64,000 nucleotides of DNA, from positions 1 to 64,000 of the forward strand of contig NZ_QUZK01000042.1 of assembly GCF_003410055.1 (NCBI RefSeq), read 5' to 3'. Source of the stretch: Wenzhouxiangella sediminis (GTDB taxonomy: Bacteria; Pseudomonadota; Gammaproteobacteria; Xanthomonadales; Wenzhouxiangellaceae). Shown piece by piece: positions 8,013-33,009 of this stretch (positions are counted from its first letter, which is position 1; each line of letters begins with the position of its first letter). The position numbers and the translations under genes are program-made. A model generated the notes under the pieces. It was not told the DNA's origin. It ran no database searches and was given only the letters and a program-made list of their open reading frames with translations.

Positions 8013-10790
8013 CTAACGAGAGACCGGGGAGCGCTTTATGACGCCATCAAAACGCTCGCGCAGCGTTTCGAGCTCCTCGCTGCCGGCCTGGAGCCAGCTT
8101 TCGATGTTTCGGGCAAGCATCTCGGCTTGCTGGGTCTCGCCCTTCTCGCGATACAGTTCGAGCAGCCGGATGGCTGACTCCACGCCGTCTGAACCGGGTG
8201 CGTCATCCATCTGGACGAGTTGGTCGACTTCTTCTTGTCGATGGGCCGCTTCGGCTTGCCGGTTACCGGCCTGTTGGTGGATGTCGGCGGCGAGGCGCAA
8301 CGTTTCCAGCCACGCGGGATCATTCGGTTCGAGGCTGTCGCGGCGGATGTCGAGCGCTGGCTGGAGAAGTTCCAGGGCCTTGTCGGGCTGGTCGGCTGCC
8401 AGGGCGGCCTCGGCGGCCATGTAGCGGGCGTTGAGTACGTCGCCGTGTTCCTCGCCGAGCAGGCGTTCGCGCCAGACGACGACCGGCTCCAGTTGCTCGA
8501 GCGCCTGTTGCGGCCGGTCGGTGCGCAGGTACAGGTCGGCCAGGTTCTGCATGGAGCTCAGGGTGAGCGGGCTGTGCGGTCCCCAGGCCTCGCGGGTGAA
8601 GCGCAGGATGTCTTGCATCATGGCGGTGGCTTCGTCGAAGCGTTCGACGTCCATGAGCGTGACGGCCATGTTGTTCATGACCTTGAGCGTTGAATCGTGG
8701 CGGCGGCCGTAGTGGCCGGCGAGGATGTCGTAGACCTCGCGCTGGACTTCCAGGGCTTCTTCCGAGCGGCCCAGGTAGCTCAGCGCCGCGCCGACGTTGA
8801 GCTGGGCGCTGTAGTAGGAGTCTTCCCAGGGTTCGAAGTGGCCGCGGGCGCGTTCGACGGCGGCGCGGAAGTGGGGCAGGGATTCCTCGATGCGCCCGGA
8901 CAGGGCGTGGACGTAGCCCAGGGTGTTGATGGCGCGCACGGTGTCGGCGTGGTGCGGGCCCAGTTCTTCTTCGGCGCGCTCGATGTTCTCTTGCGCGATT
9001 TCGAGTGCGCGCTCGTTCTCGCCGGTTCGCACCAGGTGGTTGGCCAGGCTGTCGAAGGCGGCGTGGCGTACGCGCAGCTGGTCGGGGTTGTCGGGGTCGA
9101 GGTTGTCCAGGATGGCGTCGAGCTGGGCGCGGGCGGCCTCGTTTTCGGCCTGGCGCGAGAGCAGGCGGTAGTACTGGCGGCGTGCTTCCAGCGTGTCGGT
9201 GGCGCCGGGGCCCAAGGCCTCGACGCGCAGGTCGACGACGCGCTCGGCCAGGGGCAGGGCGTTTTCGACCATGCCGGCGTTGAAGTAGATGTCGCGCAGG
9301 GTCTCGAACAGGGCGGCCTGCAGGCGCGGCTCGTCGGCAAAGTCGGCTTCGATGTTGTCGATGGCGCGCTGCATCATGAATTCGTCGAGCAGGTCCTGCG
9401 CCAGGTCGGTGGGGTTGATCTGGCCGACGGCGACTTCGAAGGCCTCGATACCGGCTTCGACCGTTGCCTCGTCGGCATCGTGGGCGAAGGACTGCGCGTG
9501 CTGCTCCCGCAGGCGGTCGACGAAGCTCTGGCCGAGCTCGCGCGGCTGCAGGTCGCCGAGCATGGATTGCTGGAAATCGACCATACGTTCGAGTTGGGCC
9601 GACCGGGCCTCGGCAATCTGTTGTTGTTCGCGCGCTTCAGTCATGCCCCGGATGGCCAGGGTGAGCCCGGCGGCCAGGGAGACGGCGACCAGGCTGGCGG
9701 CGGTGACCGTCAGGGCGTTGCGCTGGACGAAACGGTGCGCAAAGTACCAACGCCCGCCTTCGACCGCGCGCACCGGCTGGCGGTCGAGATGGCGACGCAC
9801 GTCGTCGGCCAGTTCCGGCACGCTCGCGTAGCGCTGGTCGGGATCATGGGCCACGGCCCGGGCCGTGATGGCATCGAGGTCGCCCTTGAGCCGGCGCAGC
9901 AGCTGTGCCGGGGTGGTGCGGCGTCGCTCGGCCGCGCGCTCGAGATCGGCCCGGTCGGACTCGAGCAGCCGCGAGGGGACGGGCGCGGGGTGCAATTGAG
10001 CCAGCTGCTCGCGGATGACGCGGGTGTCGGTCTTGTCGAACAGGCGCGATGGATAGGGCCGGCAGTCGGTGAGCAGTTCGCACAGGATCACGCCCAGGGA
10101 GTAGACGTCAGCGCGCATGTCGATGCCGGCGGTCTCGTCGAACAGCTCGGGGCTCATGTAGTGCGGCGTGCCGGTGGTGCCCTGGTGGCGGCGCTCGCTG
10201 GCCGAGCTCTCGGTCACTGCAATACCGAAATCGATGATTTTCGGCCGCGGCACGTCGTCGACCAGCGAGACGAGGATGTTGGCCGGTTTGAGGTCGCGGT
10301 GGACCAGGCCCTTCTGATGGGCGTGCGACACGCCCCGGCAGATGCGCACGAACAGTTCGAGGCGTTCGCGCAGGTCCAGGCGGTGCTTGGTGCAGAACTC
10401 GGTCAGCGTTTCCCCGGGCACGTACTCCATGGCGAAGTAGGGATAGCCGTCGGGGTTGGTGCCGGCCTCGAAGATCTGCGCGATGGCGGGGTGGTTCATC
10501 TGCGCCATGGCCTGGCGCTCGACCAGGAAGCGGACCTCGCTCGTCGCGCTGCGGATCTTCTGCTGGATCAGCTTGACGGCGACCATTCGCTCGACCGGCT
10601 CGAGCTGCTGGGCGAGGAAGACCTGGCCCATGCCGCCGCTGCCGAGTTTCTCGACCACGCGATAGCCGGGCAGCTTCAGTTCGTCGTCGGGGGCGACGGA
10701 TCGGGACGAGTGGGGTGACTTCTCGTCGAGGGCGCGCGTGGCGTCGTCGTCGACCCGGGTACGATCATCGTTGCGTCGATCTTCGCTCAT
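8013..10790 (-). CDS. Membrane-anchored Ser/Thr protein kinase with C-terminal TPR-like repeats
   Basis: From the ATG at 10790 this is a 925-residue Hanks-type kinase. The glycine loop GSGGMGQV is at 50-57, the beta-3 lysine is K73, the catalytic loop HRDLKPAN starts at 164, DFG is at 187-189 and the APE-like SPE is near 213. A transmembrane helix lies at about 359-380. The rest is helical repeats of TPR type, presumably periplasmic and used to bind ligands or partners. All catalytic residues are present. It is divergent from the 11020 gene, with 229 bp between them. A start 64 codons upstream is possible but has no kinase-family sequence. Confidence 0.93.
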   Translation of the reverse strand: MSEDRRNDDRTRVDDDATRALDEKSPHSSRSVAPDDELKLPGYRVVEKLGSGGMGQVFLAQQLEPVERMVAVKLIQQKIRSATSEVRFLVERQAMAQMNHPAIAQIFEAGTNPDGYPYFAMEYVPGETLTEFCTKHRLDLRERLELFVRICRGVSHAHQKGLVHRDLKPANILVSLVDDVPRPKIIDFGIAVTESSASERRHQGTTGTPHYMSPELFDETAGIDMRADVYSLGVILCELLTDCRPYPSRLFDKTDTRVIREQLAQLHPAPVPSRLLESDRADLERAAERRRTTPAQLLRRLKGDLDAITARAVAHDPDQRYASVPELADDVRRHLDRQPVRAVEGGRWYFAHRFVQRNALTVTAASLVAVSLAAGLTLAIRGMTEAREQQQIAEARSAQLERMVDFQQSMLGDLQPRELGQSFVDRLREQHAQSFAHDADEATVEAGIEAFEVAVGQINPTDLAQDLLDEFMMQRAIDNIEADFADEPRLQAALFETLRDIYFNAGMVENALPLAERVVDLRVEALGPGATDTLEARRQYYRLLSRQAENEAARAQLDAILDNLDPDNPDQLRVRHAAFDSLANHLVRTGENERALEIAQENIERAEEELGPHHADTVRAINTLGYVHALSGRIEESLPHFRAAVERARGHFEPWEDSYYSAQLNVGAALSYLGRSEEALEVQREVYDILAGHYGRRHDSTLKVMNNMAVTLMDVERFDEATAMMQDILRFTREAWGPHSPLTLSSMQNLADLYLRTDRPQQALEQLEPVVVWRERLLGEEHGDVLNARYMAAEAALAADQPDKALELLQPALDIRRDSLEPNDPAWLETLRLAADIHQQAGNRQAEAAHRQEEVDQLVQMDDAPGSDGVESAIRLLELYREKGETQQAEMLARNIESWLQAGSEELETLRERFDGVIKRSPVSR

Positions 10791-11019
10791 CGCGATGCCT
10801 TGTTCGGGGCGCTGTCGGTCGTCGTGCGTGCGACCATTATGCAACAGCGGCTTGCCACGGCCGAAGCCCCGAGAATCCCGCGACGCCGGGTTCGACGCGG
10901 CCACTGTCGCATTGCTGTCTGGTGCCAGGATTGCGTCATGGCGGCTTTCTGACGTCGCGGGAGCGCCTGCGCGGCGTTTCAATGGGCCTCGTTGTCAATC
11001 ATGGAATGAGAGGCAGAAC

Positions 11020-25846: not shown

Positions 25847-27587
25847 GAATCGGCGACCCGCTTCGCCAGCTTTCAGCCAGGCGAAGCGCGTGCGGGATGT
25901 CGCGGCAGTAGGCGAGCCGGCCACTGGCCCGGCGGATCCCCACGCGTCTGAGTTTGACCACGATGCGGGGCTCGGCGTTGACGACGATGAGTCCGACGCC
26001 GCTGCGGTGGAGTTGCTCGAGCATGGACTGGAAGACCACGATCGCCGACATGTCCATGCTGGGCACTTCGCCCATGTCGAGGATCACGATCTTCACGTCA
26101 GGCTCCAGGCGATGCAGCGTGGCCAGGGCGCGTTCGGCCGCGCCGAAGAACATCGGCCCGCGGAGGCGGAAGGCCGCGATGTCGGTGGGCAGGTCACGGG
26201 GCAGACCGGCTTCCCTGCCGGATATCGGTTGCGAGGAGGTCACGTCGGCCATGCGCTGGATGAAGAGCATCGCCGCCAGCCCCACGCCGACGGCCACCGC
26301 GACGACCATGTCGAACACCACCGTCAGGCCGAAACAGGTCAACAAGACCGCCACGTCACCGCGCGGCGCGGATTTGAGGATGCGGATGAAGTGCCCGGCT
26401 TCGCTCATGTTCCAGGCGACGACCAGCAGCAGGGCGGCCAGCGCCGCCATGGGCAGTTGCGACAAGGCGCCGGCCATGAAAAGCATGGCCAGCAGGACGA
26501 CGAGCGCGTGGACCATGCTCGCAACCGGCGAAGCTGCCCCGAAGCGGACACTGGTGGCGGTTCGTGCGATAGCGGCGGTTGCCGTAATGCCGCCGAAGAA
26601 CGGGGCGACCACGTTGCCGATGCCCTGGCCGACCAGCTCGGAATTGGGCCGGTGTCGCGTGCCGGTCATGCCGTCGGCGATGACGCCGCACAGCAGGGAC
26701 TCGATCGCGCCCAGCATGGCGATGGCCATGGCCGGCCCGAGCAGATCGCGCAGCAGCCCGAAACTCAGTTGCAGTGGTGCGCCGTCGGGTCCGGGAAGAT
26801 GCCACGGCAGGCTGAACTGCGGCAGGCCGGGTGGAATGCCCTGACCGGCCACGCCGTCGAGTTCGTAACTGAAGCGGCTGGCGATGGTGGCCACCTCGAA
26901 GCCCGGCCAGAAGCGGGCCGCCAGCCAGGCGCCCAGGCCGGCCACCAACAGCGCGATCAGCGGGGCGGGGATGGCGCTCTTCAGGCGTGGCCAGGCCAGC
27001 AGGATGCCCAGGGTCAATAGTCCGACCGACAGGTCTTGCCAGTTGGTGCTCGGTAACGCCATGACAATGCCGTGGAGCTGTTCCAGGAAGTGCCCGCCCG
27101 ATCCGGCGGAAGCCAGCCCGAGGAGATCGCGAATCTGCAGCGTCGCGATGACCACCGCGATCCCGGCGGTGAATCCCACGACGACGGGATAGGGGATGAA
27201 CCGGATGAGCCGGCCCAGCCCGGTCAAACCCATCAGCACGAGCAGCAACCCGGCCATGACCGTGGCCAGCAGCAGCCCGCCGATACCGTGTTCGGCGACG
27301 ACCGGCATCAGGACCACGACGAAGGCGGCGGTCGGCCCGGAAACATTGAAGCGCGATCCGCCCGACAGGGCGATGATGAACCCCGCCACGATCGAGGTGT
27401 AGAGACCGTGCTGGGGCGGCACGCCGACGGCGATTGCCAGGGCCATGCCCAGGGGGATGGCCACGACGCCAACCGTCAGTCCGGCCAGGATGTCGCGCTT
27501 GAACTCGCTTGGGCCGTAGCCGGCGCGCAGGGTGTCGACCAGGGCCGAAAAGGGCAACCGGTCGCTCGGGGAGGGCATTGCGCGCAT
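25800..27587 (-). CDS. SulP family anion transporter with STAS domain
   Basis: The 595-residue protein has the SulP core: 10-14 TM segments with AIPLGMALAIAVGVPPQHGLYTS split over TM1-2, the SGPTAAF motif on TM3, and a C-terminal STAS domain (about 460-560) with ILDMGEVPSMDMSAI. Members carry sulfate, bicarbonate or dicarboxylates; the substrate is not decided by sequence alone. The start is ATG 27587 or 27578. The tail overlaps nei by 47 bp, convergently. It shares a 152-bp divergent promoter region with the 926-aa kinase-like gene. Confidence 0.92.
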   Translation of the reverse strand: MRAMPSPSDRLPFSALVDTLRAGYGPSEFKRDILAGLTVGVVAIPLGMALAIAVGVPPQHGLYTSIVAGFIIALSGGSRFNVSGPTAAFVVVLMPVVAEHGIGGLLLATVMAGLLLVLMGLTGLGRLIRFIPYPVVVGFTAGIAVVIATLQIRDLLGLASAGSGGHFLEQLHGIVMALPSTNWQDLSVGLLTLGILLAWPRLKSAIPAPLIALLVAGLGAWLAARFWPGFEVATIASRFSYELDGVAGQGIPPGLPQFSLPWHLPGPDGAPLQLSFGLLRDLLGPAMAIAMLGAIESLLCGVIADGMTGTRHRPNSELVGQGIGNVVAPFFGGITATAAIARTATSVRFGAASPVASMVHALVVLLAMLFMAGALSQLPMAALAALLLVVAWNMSEAGHFIRILKSAPRGDVAVLLTCFGLTVVFDMVVAVAVGVGLAAMLFIQRMADVTSSQPISGREAGLPRDLPTDIAAFRLRGPMFFGAAERALATLHRLEPDVKIVILDMGEVPSMDMSAIVVFQSMLEQLHRSGVGLIVVNAEPRIVVKLRRVGIRRASGRLAYCRDIPHALRLAESWRSGSPIPTEPGNSDSGTDAGR

Positions 27588-27739
27588 CCATGGATTATAG
27601 CGCCGGAGCGGGGCAATCCCCAGTATCGGAGGGTGTTTCTCCGTACGGCGACGTACAGGATTTCCCGACTTGCCGCGGTCGGGTCCCTCCAGTAAAGTGC
27701 CTCGGGCTGATCCCGGTCCGATAACGACGACAGAATCCC

Positions 27740-30520
27740 TTGACCGCCCAATTGTTCGCACGCTTTTTTGCCGCCGACCGCAAGGATCGGGAGATTCCCG
27801 AAGCGGCGCTGCAGCGAACCCTTCGGCGCGAACACGGGCTGGTCGAGGACTTCGCGAGACGCATTCCCCACATCCCGTTGGTGCAGCACCGCACCGGTGA
27901 GGACGACTCGGCCCTGGGAACGGTACGGTTCGCCGACCTGGAAGCGCGACCCCGGCGGATCTTCGCCACCGATGATCCGGCGGTCGTCTACGTCGAGGTC
28001 GTGTTTCGCTATACCTCGCGCGAGCACGTCGTTCACGAGGCGAACCTCGGTGACACGCGTGTGTATGTGCGCATCGAGGATCCGCTGTACCTGGAAGGCC
28101 GGGCCCACACCGTCGAGCAGGTGCGCGGCCGCAGGAAGCTGCGCGAGGCGTACTTCCGGCGGGTCTTCTCGCTGATGGCGGTGCAGAGTGACTGCAATGC
28201 CTCGCTCGGGGAGTGGATGAAGGGCCTGCTGTTTCCCGACACCGGGGCCAGCGAGCTCGACCTGCTCGCCACCATCCAGAACTTCAATCACAACATCGTC
28301 ACGCGGCCGCGACCGCAGGGTGCCGGGCGCGACGCTTTCCGCGGGGCCATGCAGGATATCGATTTCGCCACCCTGGCGCCGGCGGAAGGACCGGTTTCGG
28401 TGCGGCTCTCGGTGCGGCCGCACCGTCGCGCGGACGGGAGCTATTCGCAGTCGGTGACCGGCGTGTTCCTGGGCAACGCCCGCGGCCTCGCTTTCCGGAG
28501 GCCCAACGGCAAGCTGGAGTTCCTGACCCCGGGCAGCGCTTTCGAACGGCGCTTCCGGGCCTTCGTGGAGGCGCGTGCGGGCGATCGCCTGAAAAGCCTC
28601 GATCGCAACTCCTGGCGTCGCAACGCCGAGGAGCGCATCTGGGGCGGGCCGGGCGAGTGCGAGGCCTATTTCCACAACCACGAGCGCTTCGTGATGCAGG
28701 GCCTGGAGTGGACCCTCGAGCGCGACGACAACGATGTGCCGCGCGTGATGGGCAGCCACTGCAACGTGGCCGCTTACCGTAGCGGCCCTCGCCGCGTGGC
28801 CGTCAAGGCCGTCCCCTTTGAGTCCGTGGGCGACCTCGTCCGGCTGATGCAGGCTCACCAGTACGTGCATGGCGTGCAGGCGCCGGCGCTGGTCGCCCAG
28901 GCCAGTGCCTACCCCGCCCTCGCTGCAAGGATCATCACCGCCGTCACCAGCCTGCTGAGCGATCGGGACGAAGCGGATCAAGACACGCAGCAAGCGCCGG
29001 AAACGTTCTTCGAGCGGGACTGGAGCAGCCTGTTCAGCCGCAATATCGGCCCACTCCTGCACCAGGTGACCGTCGACTACGAACACAAGCTGCTGCTCGC
29101 GGTGCTGGACTGGAGCGCGGAGGGCATGCTGTCGGATTTCGGCGCCCGCAAACGGCTGATGGAGGATTGCTCGCTCAGCCATCGCCTCCGCATGGCGGCC
29201 AATCTGTTCCGCAATGGCCACCAGATGCTCGAAGACGATGTCACGCACACCGATCTCAAGCCCGAGAACATCCTGAACAAGCCCGGTGCCGCCTTCAGTG
29301 CCTTGCAGAAAGCTCGCAGGGAGGGCTGGGACAGCCTGGACGACCGCGAGCTCGAGCGCCTCGTCGCCGGTGAGTCGACCTTCGAGGGCGACTTCTCCGG
29401 CATTCACTTCGGGCGGGAGGGCGCCGTCGACAACCTGGCGCACGGCGAGGGGCTGCCGACCTCGATTCGCTACTCGAGCTGGAAATTCACCAGCCTGGGA
29501 CTGAGCGAAGGCACCCAGCCGACGGTGTTGAGAAAGCAGGGCGGGGAATTGCCCCGCATCGATGCGCTGCTGCTCGAGCAGGACATCGCCAACCGTGGCA
29601 CCACGGCCTGGGAAATCGTCTACGGCTCCCTCGTCGACTGCATTCCGCCCGCCGAGGAAGCCCGACGGCTGGCGGGTCGCAAGCTGGCCCAGGAGCGCGT
29701 TGGCAAGCACCTGGCCGAAGCCATTCGACGCAAGCGCGAGGGCAAGCCGGAGGACCCGCGCGTCATGCGGGAGTTGGAGTCGGCCATGCAGCAATGCGAC
29801 AGCCGGCTGCTGGACGTGGTCAGCCTGCGCTCGGAGACAATCGAAAACAAGACGCGTCTGACGCCCCTTTTCCAGCACCCCGGGGATAACGCCGGCGGCC
29901 TGGCCGCGTGGCTCGATCCGCGCGTTATCGAAATGCTCGACCACCTGGCCTGCGATTTTCGGCGCCAGGACATCACGCGTCACCAGGTGGCCAAGCTCTA
30001 CCGCACGGCCGAGGCCTTGTTGCGGGCCGAGGCGACTCGGCTCGAAGGCGCGGACCGGCGCACTGTCCACAACCGCCGCCAGCGCATGGTGACCTACATG
30101 CACGCCAACGGTCTGCACTTCAATCCGGACTGCGGCCTGCTGGGCCTGGCTGAGCTGCCGCGGCAGCTGGAGGAATTCGCCGAGTTGGTGGAACGTCTAC
30201 CCGATCCTCGCAGGGCGCTGGCCGAGTTCACCACCACCTGGTCCAACCTGCGGCTGTGGGGCGCAAGCGTCCTCGATGCGCTGGGTGACCTCCAGTCGTC
30301 GGGCCAGGCGCCCACCCAAGCCAGCGACAAGGGCAGGGAAGAGCTGTACCAGTTGGTGCGCTCGACCTTGCTGAAGGAACACGAGAGCCTTGCCCGGGAA
30401 GAATCGCGGGCGAACGAGGAGCGGATGCAGCCGCCCTTCCTGGGCCTTTTCGAGCGGCGCAGGGTGCGTGTCTACCGCGAAAACGGCGGGTTGCGGTTCA
30501 GCCACACGGTGGAGACCTGA
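27740..30520 (+). CDS. Unfamiliar 926-aa protein with an atypical protein-kinase core
   Basis: I do not recognise the family. Kinase landmarks are spaced across the middle: a beta-3-like RRVAVKAVPF (K356), a hinge-like LLLAVLDWSAEGMLSD (451-466), the catalytic loop THTDLKPENIL (502-512, HTD in place of HRD), a possible metal-site Asp in EGDFSG (D551), and an alpha-F motif D615...G620...WE...G629. About 335 unknown residues precede and about 290 helical, charged residues follow. An insert of nearly 40 residues separates the catalytic loop from the DFG-like site. It is soluble, with no signal peptide or TM segment. The start is TTG 27740; an in-frame stop at 27722 prevents extension. It ends 3 bp before a convergent gene. 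Confidence 0.85.
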   Translation: MTAQLFARFFAADRKDREIPEAALQRTLRREHGLVEDFARRIPHIPLVQHRTGEDDSALGTVRFADLEARPRRIFATDDPAVVYVEVVFRYTSREHVVHEANLGDTRVYVRIEDPLYLEGRAHTVEQVRGRRKLREAYFRRVFSLMAVQSDCNASLGEWMKGLLFPDTGASELDLLATIQNFNHNIVTRPRPQGAGRDAFRGAMQDIDFATLAPAEGPVSVRLSVRPHRRADGSYSQSVTGVFLGNARGLAFRRPNGKLEFLTPGSAFERRFRAFVEARAGDRLKSLDRNSWRRNAEERIWGGPGECEAYFHNHERFVMQGLEWTLERDDNDVPRVMGSHCNVAAYRSGPRRVAVKAVPFESVGDLVRLMQAHQYVHGVQAPALVAQASAYPALAARIITAVTSLLSDRDEADQDTQQAPETFFERDWSSLFSRNIGPLLHQVTVDYEHKLLLAVLDWSAEGMLSDFGARKRLMEDCSLSHRLRMAANLFRNGHQMLEDDVTHTDLKPENILNKPGAAFSALQKARREGWDSLDDRELERLVAGESTFEGDFSGIHFGREGAVDNLAHGEGLPTSIRYSSWKFTSLGLSEGTQPTVLRKQGGELPRIDALLLEQDIANRGTTAWEIVYGSLVDCIPPAEEARRLAGRKLAQERVGKHLAEAIRRKREGKPEDPRVMRELESAMQQCDSRLLDVVSLRSETIENKTRLTPLFQHPGDNAGGLAAWLDPRVIEMLDHLACDFRRQDITRHQVAKLYRTAEALLRAEATRLEGADRRTVHNRRQRMVTYMHANGLHFNPDCGLLGLAELPRQLEEFAELVERLPDPRRALAEFTTTWSNLRLWGASVLDALGDLQSSGQAPTQASDKGREELYQLVRSTLLKEHESLAREESRANEERMQPPFLGLFERRRVRVYRENGGLRFSHTVET

Positions 30521-32028: not shown

Positions 32029-33009
32029 ATGCCCGACACCCGCCAGCGCGACGAAGCGCTTCTGACCATTGCCCTCTTTGCTGCCTTCGCCGACGGTTCC
32101 AAGCACGAGGACGAGCGCGAGGAAATCCGCAACATTGCTGAATCACTCTCGGGCGATGGCGGCCCGGACCTGCGGACGCTTTACCAGGATGTGCTGCTCA
32201 AGCGCGTGTCGCTGGCCGATGCCGCCGGCAGGCTCCAGGACGCGGGCGAGAAGCACCTGGCCTATGAAATGGCGGTGGGCGTGTGCGACGCCGACGGCCG
32301 CATGACCGAGGAGGAACGGCGCTTCCTGGACGAGCTGCGCGGACTGCTGGACATGGGCAGCGACGAATCGGGCGAGATCGAGCAGGAGGCCGAACAGGTC
32401 GTGGCCATGGCCGAGGCCGCCGCTCCGTCGATGGTTTCGAAGGCGGATGCCACCCAGCCGCCGATCGGTAGCGCAACGGCCGTCGACGAAGTGGCCATGG
32501 ACAAGACCATCCTCAACTACTCGATTCTCAACGGTGCGCTTGAATTGCTGCCGCAGTCCTGGGCGTCGATGGCCATCATTCCCCTGCAGATCCGCATGGT
32601 CTACGGCATCGGCAAGGAATACGGCGTCGAGCTCGACCGGGGCCACATCAAGGAATTCCTGGCGACGCTCGGCGTGGGCATGACCTCGCAGTACCTGGAG
32701 CAGTTCGGCCGCAAGCTCATCGGCGGCCTGCTGGGTGGTATGGCCGGCCGCGGCGTCGGCCGCGTGGGCCGTGCCGCAACCGGCATGGCGTTTTCGTTCG
32801 CCACGACCTATGCCCTGGGCCACGTGGCCCGGCGCTACTACGCCGGCGGCCGCCAGATGAGCACCGAGCTGCTCAAGTCGACCTTCAACGAGATGCTGGG
32901 CTCGGCCAAGCAGAAGCAGGGCGAGTTCATGCCGCAGATCGAACAGAAGGCACAGAACCTCGACATGAGCCAGGTGATGGGCCTGGTCAAGGGCGGCGGC
33001 CGGGTCTGA
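32029..33009 (+). CDS. TerB-like / DUF697 domain protein
   Basis: Residues 1-115 are a TerB-type helical domain with two acidic motifs (FADGSKHEDEREE; CDADGRMTEEERRFL) that may bind metal. Residues 155-265 are a DUF697/YcjF-like membrane-associated region with a Gly-rich hydrophobic segment (GGLLGGMAGRGVGRVGRAAT). The combination suggests an inner-membrane stress-associated protein. It lies 37 bp after the GST gene on the same strand and is convergent with the LuxR gene, 9 bp apart. Confidence 0.82.
   Translation: MPDTRQRDEALLTIALFAAFADGSKHEDEREEIRNIAESLSGDGGPDLRTLYQDVLLKRVSLADAAGRLQDAGEKHLAYEMAVGVCDADGRMTEEERRFLDELRGLLDMGSDESGEIEQEAEQVVAMAEAAAPSMVSKADATQPPIGSATAVDEVAMDKTILNYSILNGALELLPQSWASMAIIPLQIRMVYGIGKEYGVELDRGHIKEFLATLGVGMTSQYLEQFGRKLIGGLLGGMAGRGVGRVGRAATGMAFSFATTYALGHVARRYYAGGRQMSTELLKSTFNEMLGSAKQKQGEFMPQIEQKAQNLDMSQVMGLVKGGGRV

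Follow-up and report, generated by a model that had tools for sequence, protein, structure and literature searches.

The protein-kinase-like (PKL) superfamily has ten key residues, according to the survey by Kannan et al. (2007; PMC1821047), which has 20 family models. The described systems that come closest to the gene reported here are the Hanks-type (PknB-like) Ser/Thr kinases, the CLK (LAMMER) and SRPK kinases of eukaryotes and the MAD6 kinase (NF047741) of a methylation-associated defence system. All CLKs and SRPK1 carry HTD in place of the HRD motif and have an insert between strands beta-7 and beta-8, unphosphorylated CLK domains adopt an active conformation and CLK1 is constitutively active, according to PMC2667211. 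Our study concerns a 64,000-nucleotide stretch of DNA from Wenzhouxiangella sediminis (contig NZ_QUZK01000042.1, positions 1 to 64,000; the whole of it is called the window below), in which an open reading frame (ORF) at 27740..30520 on the + strand, TTG start and stop codon included, encodes a kinase-like protein of 926 amino acids (aa) and 104.9 kDa. We think it on balance probable that this is a very divergent 105-kDa kinase of the PKL fold, probably soluble and probably active, restricted to one lineage and flanked by two unnamed domains.

The catalytic loop, the order of the motifs and the alpha-F pattern of the 926-aa protein are like those of Hanks-type kinases, whereas a canonical glycine loop, the helix-C Glu and the DFG motif are lacking, two inserts are present and the flanks are different. 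With the CLKs it shares an identical loop, THTDLKPENIL; CLK1, however, retains the helix-C Glu (Glu206; PMC2667211), and the similarity is limited to 34-71 residues (E 0.04-1.9). The likeness to CLK/SRPK is probably convergence within the fold. MAD6 resembles our protein weakly, around the catalytic loop, and no recurrent partner gene is found here. A sequence-only reading of this DNA had pointed to a Thr where the HRD motif has its Arg as an atypical feature; the substitution is present, and in the light of the CLKs and SRPK1 it is not atypical. The accompanying suggestion, that the protein lacks control by activation-loop phosphorylation, is plausible by analogy with these kinases.

The ORF at 27740..30520 (+) is a real gene under selection. 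It overlaps a minus-strand ORF at 27476-30118 (880 aa), and codon-position GC over the gene is 0.70/0.46/0.85 in the + frame and 0.83/0.48/0.70 in the - frame; since the third-position GC of six other genes in the window (0.80-0.93) is matched by the + strand only, the composition points to the + frame. Ten homologues with 52-94% identity keep the reading frame without stops as far as their contigs extend, three of them being cut by contig ends. For the five pairs computed, pN/pS over the whole gene ranges from 0.098 to 0.244, and in the same pairs the kinase region is also under purifying selection. The TTG start is aligned in all nine copies that retain their 5' end, the window copy counted; two loci (L026 and L027) fall outside this comparison because contig ends cut their 5' ends. 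By eye, no clear ribosome-binding site is seen in the window upstream of the TTG at 27740, which may reflect low or regulated translation. The most hydrophobic 19-residue segment on the Kyte-Doolittle scale reaches 1.33, with no strongly hydrophobic stretch, and therefore no transmembrane helix is expected in the protein.

The kinase assignment is carried by the central motifs. The sequence-only reading had listed RRVAVKAV with K356, THTDLKPENIL at 502-512 and D615-x4-G-x3-WE-x3-G629, in the order of a protein kinase; all three were found letter by letter, and they are collinear with kinases, their best profile matches falling on the corresponding kinase motifs. The reference for this comparison came from the same genome, which holds 19 ordinary kinases above the Pfam cut-off; 17 of these were aligned, and the remaining two (L044 and L049) were left out, missed by the catalytic-loop expression. 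For a gammaproteobacterial genome of 3.5 Mb, nineteen kinases is a high number. In hhalign, residues 320-660 matched the 17-kinase profile at the catalytic loop with 91.7% probability and a score of 54.6, against a peak of 24.5 in 60 column shuffles and 17.7 for the reversed alignment; the probability was 93.3% with residues 440-660 alone and 86.7% with the full-length alignment. The catalytic loop THTDLKPENILN (residues 502-513, 29243..29278, +), with H503, D505, K507 and N510, is a kinase catalytic loop. The best match of residues 320-440 was beta-3 (VAVK on VAvK), that of 515-660 was alpha-F (D-x4-G), and the scores were reached at the matching place by 1/150 shuffles for beta-3 and 6/150 for alpha-F. 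Past helix F (600-800 and 690-790) there was no profile match to protein kinases, and searches with 1-330 and 650-926 likewise gave no kinase match. A global hhalign alignment of 315-775 to kinases gave nothing sensible and was discarded.

Conservation within the family singles out the same sites. Over 11 sequences (the window protein and its ten homologues, with identity down to 52%), G338, H340, N342, K356, D365, Q371, Q374, P438, H503, T504, D505, K507, N510, D551, S553, G554, D564, D615, G620 and E625 are invariant; within the catalytic loop P508 is replaced by Ala in one homologue. Five of the PKL key residues (K72, H164, D166, N171 and D220 in PKA numbers) are matched by invariant K356, H503, D505, N510 and D615, of which H503, D505 and N510 are anchored by the significant profile match, and K356 and D615 by collinear matches that are not significant alone. 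K356 (28805..28807, +) lies in the putative beta-3 strand VAVKAV and gives the best profile match of the N-lobe, on the VAvK of kinases. The candidate alpha-F motif D615-x4-G620-x3-W624-E625-x3-G629 (29582..29626, +) aligns to the kinase pattern 'sDvysLGalLy'. The counterpart of D184 (DFG) is probably D551 in GDxSG, 46 residues after D505 (D564 is likewise invariant), and that of P104 is probably P438, directly before predicted beta-4. The H158 position would fall on L497 or H494, the latter being Leu in 1/11. The long insert that had been noticed ahead of the DFG-like site is present, at residues 514-549 (29279..29386, +) from beta-7 to the DxSG, its extent given by sequence length and two helices being predicted in it at low confidence; a second, variable insert at about 385-432, after helix C, was found besides.

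We modelled the full-length protein and residues 306-775 with AlphaFold, each from only seven sequences. In both models the segment of about 306-460 opens with strands, followed beyond the lysine by a helix and then by another two strands, the pattern of a kinase N-lobe, and the low-confidence secondary structure places this predicted N-lobe at residues 307-458 (28658..29113, +). Foldseek's top PDB chains were re-aligned with VIA (50 rows per model). For the 306-775 model, kinase N-lobes occupy 7 of the 50 rows (GAK twice, STK16, BMP2K and AAK1 three times; Z 6.4-7.3, rmsd 3.4-3.8, 81-89 residues aligned), and for the full-length model 6 of the 50 (five ASK1 and one GAK; Z 5.8-6.1, rmsd 2.7-4.0, 59-92 aligned). 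Among the 50 listed for each model, every row on the stretch 306-462 is a kinase. The rows at the top of the lists are helical bundles at about 633-716 (ion channels, MazG-like proteins, 14-3-3 and others) and were given no weight. The flanks have no family match, as the sequence-only reading had said; its N-terminal part of about 335 residues shrinks to about 305, with the core starting at about 306-320 and not at 340. The N-terminal flank is thus placed at residues 1-305 (27740..28654, +), and the mostly helical C-terminal part at 637-926 (29648..30517, +; secondary structure at low confidence), which may include the last portion of the kinase C-lobe.

Named families do not account for the protein. 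The core had been proposed to belong to a family without a name, and indeed there is no match above cut-off in Pfam, NCBIfam, PADLOC or PHROGs. Pfam Pkinase (PF00069) reaches 12.4 bits at 449-513 with a cut-off of 31.7, and the bDLD2 match is equally far below its own cut-off; when all 11 homologues are scanned with E up to 1, eight have Pkinase among their matches, with a best E of 0.008. The sole NCBIfam match is MAD6, 12.8 bits at 441-525 with a cut-off of 460; PADLOC gives none, and PHROGs a single weak match over 18 residues. A PDB search with the single sequence gave five matches, all of them CLK kinases at the catalytic loop (E 1.4-1.9), and a PDB profile search gave 18, namely 17 CLK kinases (E 0.04-0.12) and one Mce/MlaD chain (E 0.49, 725-827). 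No description of this kinase family was found in the open-access literature searched by title and opening of the abstract, a search that does not prove its absence, and the word 'kinase' does not occur in the main text of the AB-CW3 paper (PMC7691419). The best reading of these comparisons is a new, lineage-restricted family inside the known kinase-like superfamily that Pfam, NCBIfam, PADLOC and PHROGs do not name. That four family libraries miss this protein, in a genome that has 19 ordinary kinases, means that bacterial kinomes may be undercounted.

The family is confined to a narrow group of genomes. A search with the single protein found it in 11/61 genomes, comprising its own and 10/29 other Wenzhouxiangella; 0/31 genomes outside the genus but within its family and order had it. 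Five of the 15 genus genomes that are at least 90% complete carry the gene, and its absence from the other ten is therefore unlikely to be a gap. Profile searches recovered 11 true copies in 43 genomes of the family, along with three weak matches (E up to 1), each either an ordinary kinase or a chance match, and the same 11 copies in 299 genomes of the order, with two weak matches (E up to 0.01). Only the protein's own copy was found in 369 genomes of the class, and again in 398 genomes of the phylum together with two weak matches; these two sets count few or no further Wenzhouxiangella genomes and so test the space outside the genus only. The wide searches scored the best two (class, phylum) or five (order) first-look candidates per genome. 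Among the weak matches, G032 and G429 are ordinary kinases matched at the catalytic loop, G017 lies in an ORF antisense to an ORF that by eye is glutamine-synthetase-like, and G693 and G725 were taken as chance. All six loci that could be named are Wenzhouxiangella, and no homologue was found among the plasmids, phages or viral contigs searched.

In an rpoB tree of 26 genus genomes, rooted at the midpoint only, the nine carriers that have rpoB are all set apart by a single branch with support 100/100, with no non-carrier among them, and this compactness was equalled by 0/500 label shuffles. Four of the 30 genomes had no rpoB match and are left out of the tree (carriers G008 and G021, non-carriers G003 and G015). 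In the genome G009, rpoB is matched twice, each time on another contig, and this may be a mixed assembly. With the tree rooted in this way, the simplest interpretation is a single origin and vertical inheritance from then on, no sampled member being seen to have lost the gene. So far, then, the family is restricted to one Wenzhouxiangella branch and to 11/30 genomes of the genus, with none found outside the genus in the sets searched. It offers a clean case of a new kinase fixed in a lineage, with its carriers on one branch and no loss among the sampled members.

Several observations weigh against an active kinase with a complete PKL fold. The AlphaFold models are poor (pLDDT 43.6 and 45.6, pTM 0.32), and Foldseek returned zero matches at E 0.001 for either, its non-significant rows placing CDK8, ACVR1, Nek2, VRK3, an aminoglycoside phosphotransferase (APH) and a choline kinase among scattered unrelated proteins. 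The VIA Z scores of 5.8-7.3 fall within the range that the tool itself calls common; with scores in that range and unrelated helical bundles at the top of the lists, the N-lobe matches support a kinase fold and do not prove it. The bilobal fold expected from the sequence-only reading is accordingly supported for the N-lobe in both low-confidence models, which are too poor for a judgement on the C-lobe or the flanks. In the profile comparison the catalytic loop alone is significant, the beta-3 and alpha-F scores being equalled by 10/150 and 76/150 shuffles. The active site departs from the canon at three places. The helix-C Glu (E91) is absent from the helix predicted in both models at residues 363-378 (28826..28873, +), where invariant Gln residues stand at Q371 (K+15) and Q374 (K+18); E361 lies ahead of this helix and is Asp in 1/11. 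The glycine-loop candidate GxHxNVA (338-344, 28751..28771, +), assigned by position, is degenerate, and in the putative alignment the G52 position falls on invariant H340. In place of DFG there is a DxSG, in the DFG-like site G-D551-x-S-G that we assign to residues 550-554 (29387..29401, +), with D551, S553 and G554 invariant and residue 552 varying between F, C, H and L. The missing alpha-C Glu and the degenerate glycine loop, like the one-branch restriction and the conserved promoter-like element described below, go beyond what the sequence-only reading had noticed.

These departures bear most directly on the possibility of a pseudokinase, which would keep the fold and bind a nucleotide or a partner as a scaffold or switch, with no phosphate transfer. 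A helix C without Glu and with Gln at its two best positions, a His at the second Gly of the loop, and a DxSG with residue 552 free to vary are what such a protein might show; K356, D505, N510 and D551 are nevertheless invariant in 11/11, which a dead kinase need not retain, and we regard a pseudokinase as rather unlikely, though to be reckoned with. Two PKL families have Phe at the E91 position (PMC1821047). HTD and the beta-7/beta-8 insert also occur in active CLK/SRPK kinases, and therefore neither implies inactivity; by this analogy the predicted kinase is more likely active than dead. It is also possible, if tentative, that the ATP site has been re-engineered as a whole, with Gln for the helix-C Glu, GxHxNVA and DxSG, and is still active, and that with its two new domains the protein forms a lineage-specific signalling device. 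If it is active, it would show that phosphotransfer can persist when both DFG and the ion pair K72-E91 are replaced.

The lack of any profile match past helix F leaves some room for a kinase that shares the fold but acts on small molecules or other non-protein substrates (of aminoglycoside, choline or lipid type), and whose flanks would bind a small substrate, and an aminoglycoside phosphotransferase (4h05) and the choline kinase LicA (4r77) do appear among the Foldseek rows, none significant. HxDLKPENI is, however, the form that the loop takes in protein kinases, CLK kinases are what the PDB sequence search matches at this site, and no recurrent neighbour points to a pathway; we hold this explanation improbable. 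An unrelated fold in which the motifs arose by chance or convergence would fit a single significant motif out of three and a poor structure prediction. Against it, three motifs are collinear, each at its matching kinase position, both models have a kinase-like N-lobe and most key residues have an invariant candidate, which makes such an origin of the motifs very unlikely. A MAD6-type kinase that serves in defence against phages is suggested by the MAD6 match in NCBIfam. That match is far below its cut-off, and the same query gave 14.8% (catalytic loop) against seven MAD6-like proteins as compared with 86.7% against ordinary kinases; the MAD6-like alignment comprised 7 of 8 loci, L077 being left out because the catalytic-loop expression missed it. 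PADLOC has no match, no partner recurs in all loci, no homologue was found in the plasmids, phages and viral contigs searched and the carriers cluster on the rpoB tree, so that we see hardly any chance of a MAD6-type function.

These data suggest a model for the divergent PKL-fold kinase that we favour. The PKL fold would span roughly residues 306-640 and be flanked on either side by an unnamed domain. Within the fold, K356 would hold the phosphates of ATP, D505 would act as catalytic base, the metal ions would be bound by N510 and D551, and D615 in helix F would anchor the catalytic loop. The enzyme, probably active, would work without the need for activation-loop phosphorylation, and the flanking domains may choose the substrate or gate activity. 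Its gene would have arisen, or been acquired, a single time, in the ancestor of a Wenzhouxiangella branch, whose members would then have inherited it vertically with its own promoter. We infer the full bilobal fold, the activity, the promoter function and the signalling role.

The putative promoter is a 31-bp element, CTTGCCGC-N10-CTCCAGTAAAGTG, at 27669..27699 (+). It resembles a sigma-70 promoter, with TTGCCG (27670-27675), a 17-nt spacer and TAAAGT (27693-27698), 41 nt before the start codon, and it is aligned in 9/9 copies with 5' sequence, the window included, though the genes beyond differ. A scan of the 30 genus genomes with up to three mismatches gave ten matches, eight of them before the kinase-like gene (seven perfect) and two elsewhere (three mismatches each), and the reversed-pattern control gave four; the ninth copy (G027) has the aligned element, yet is not among the scan matches. 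In the window there is one match, against 0 in 100 shuffles. A standard promoter scan lists nothing at the element, which has 8/12 consensus letters by manual count where the limit is nine. By its sequence the element is a candidate promoter, and its conservation past both hexamers suggests an overlapping binding site, which would perhaps serve autoregulation. A role as the mark of a regulon was rejected, the own genome having one match at up to three mismatches.

Neighbouring genes were called by a crude script, and several loci are short through contig ends. No neighbour gene recurs in all 11 loci, and the kinase-like gene therefore looks like a stand-alone unit; no defence context was found around it. 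In six loci a gene for a glutathione-S-transferase follows downstream in first or second place, and the remaining five have other contexts, with some genes common to three or four of them. Windows at the glutathione-S-transferase homologue in six non-carriers have little else in common with the neighbourhood in the carriers and show no empty site. At 32029-33009 (+) the window encodes a TerB/DUF533-like protein that DUF697 matches weakly close to the C-terminus; its gene adjoins the glutathione-S-transferase gene in the window and in L027, and lies farther away in L026. Elsewhere in the window, 8013-10982 (-) encodes a Hanks-type kinase of the ordinary kind, matched by Pkinase with 150 bits and bearing TPR repeats at its C-terminal end.

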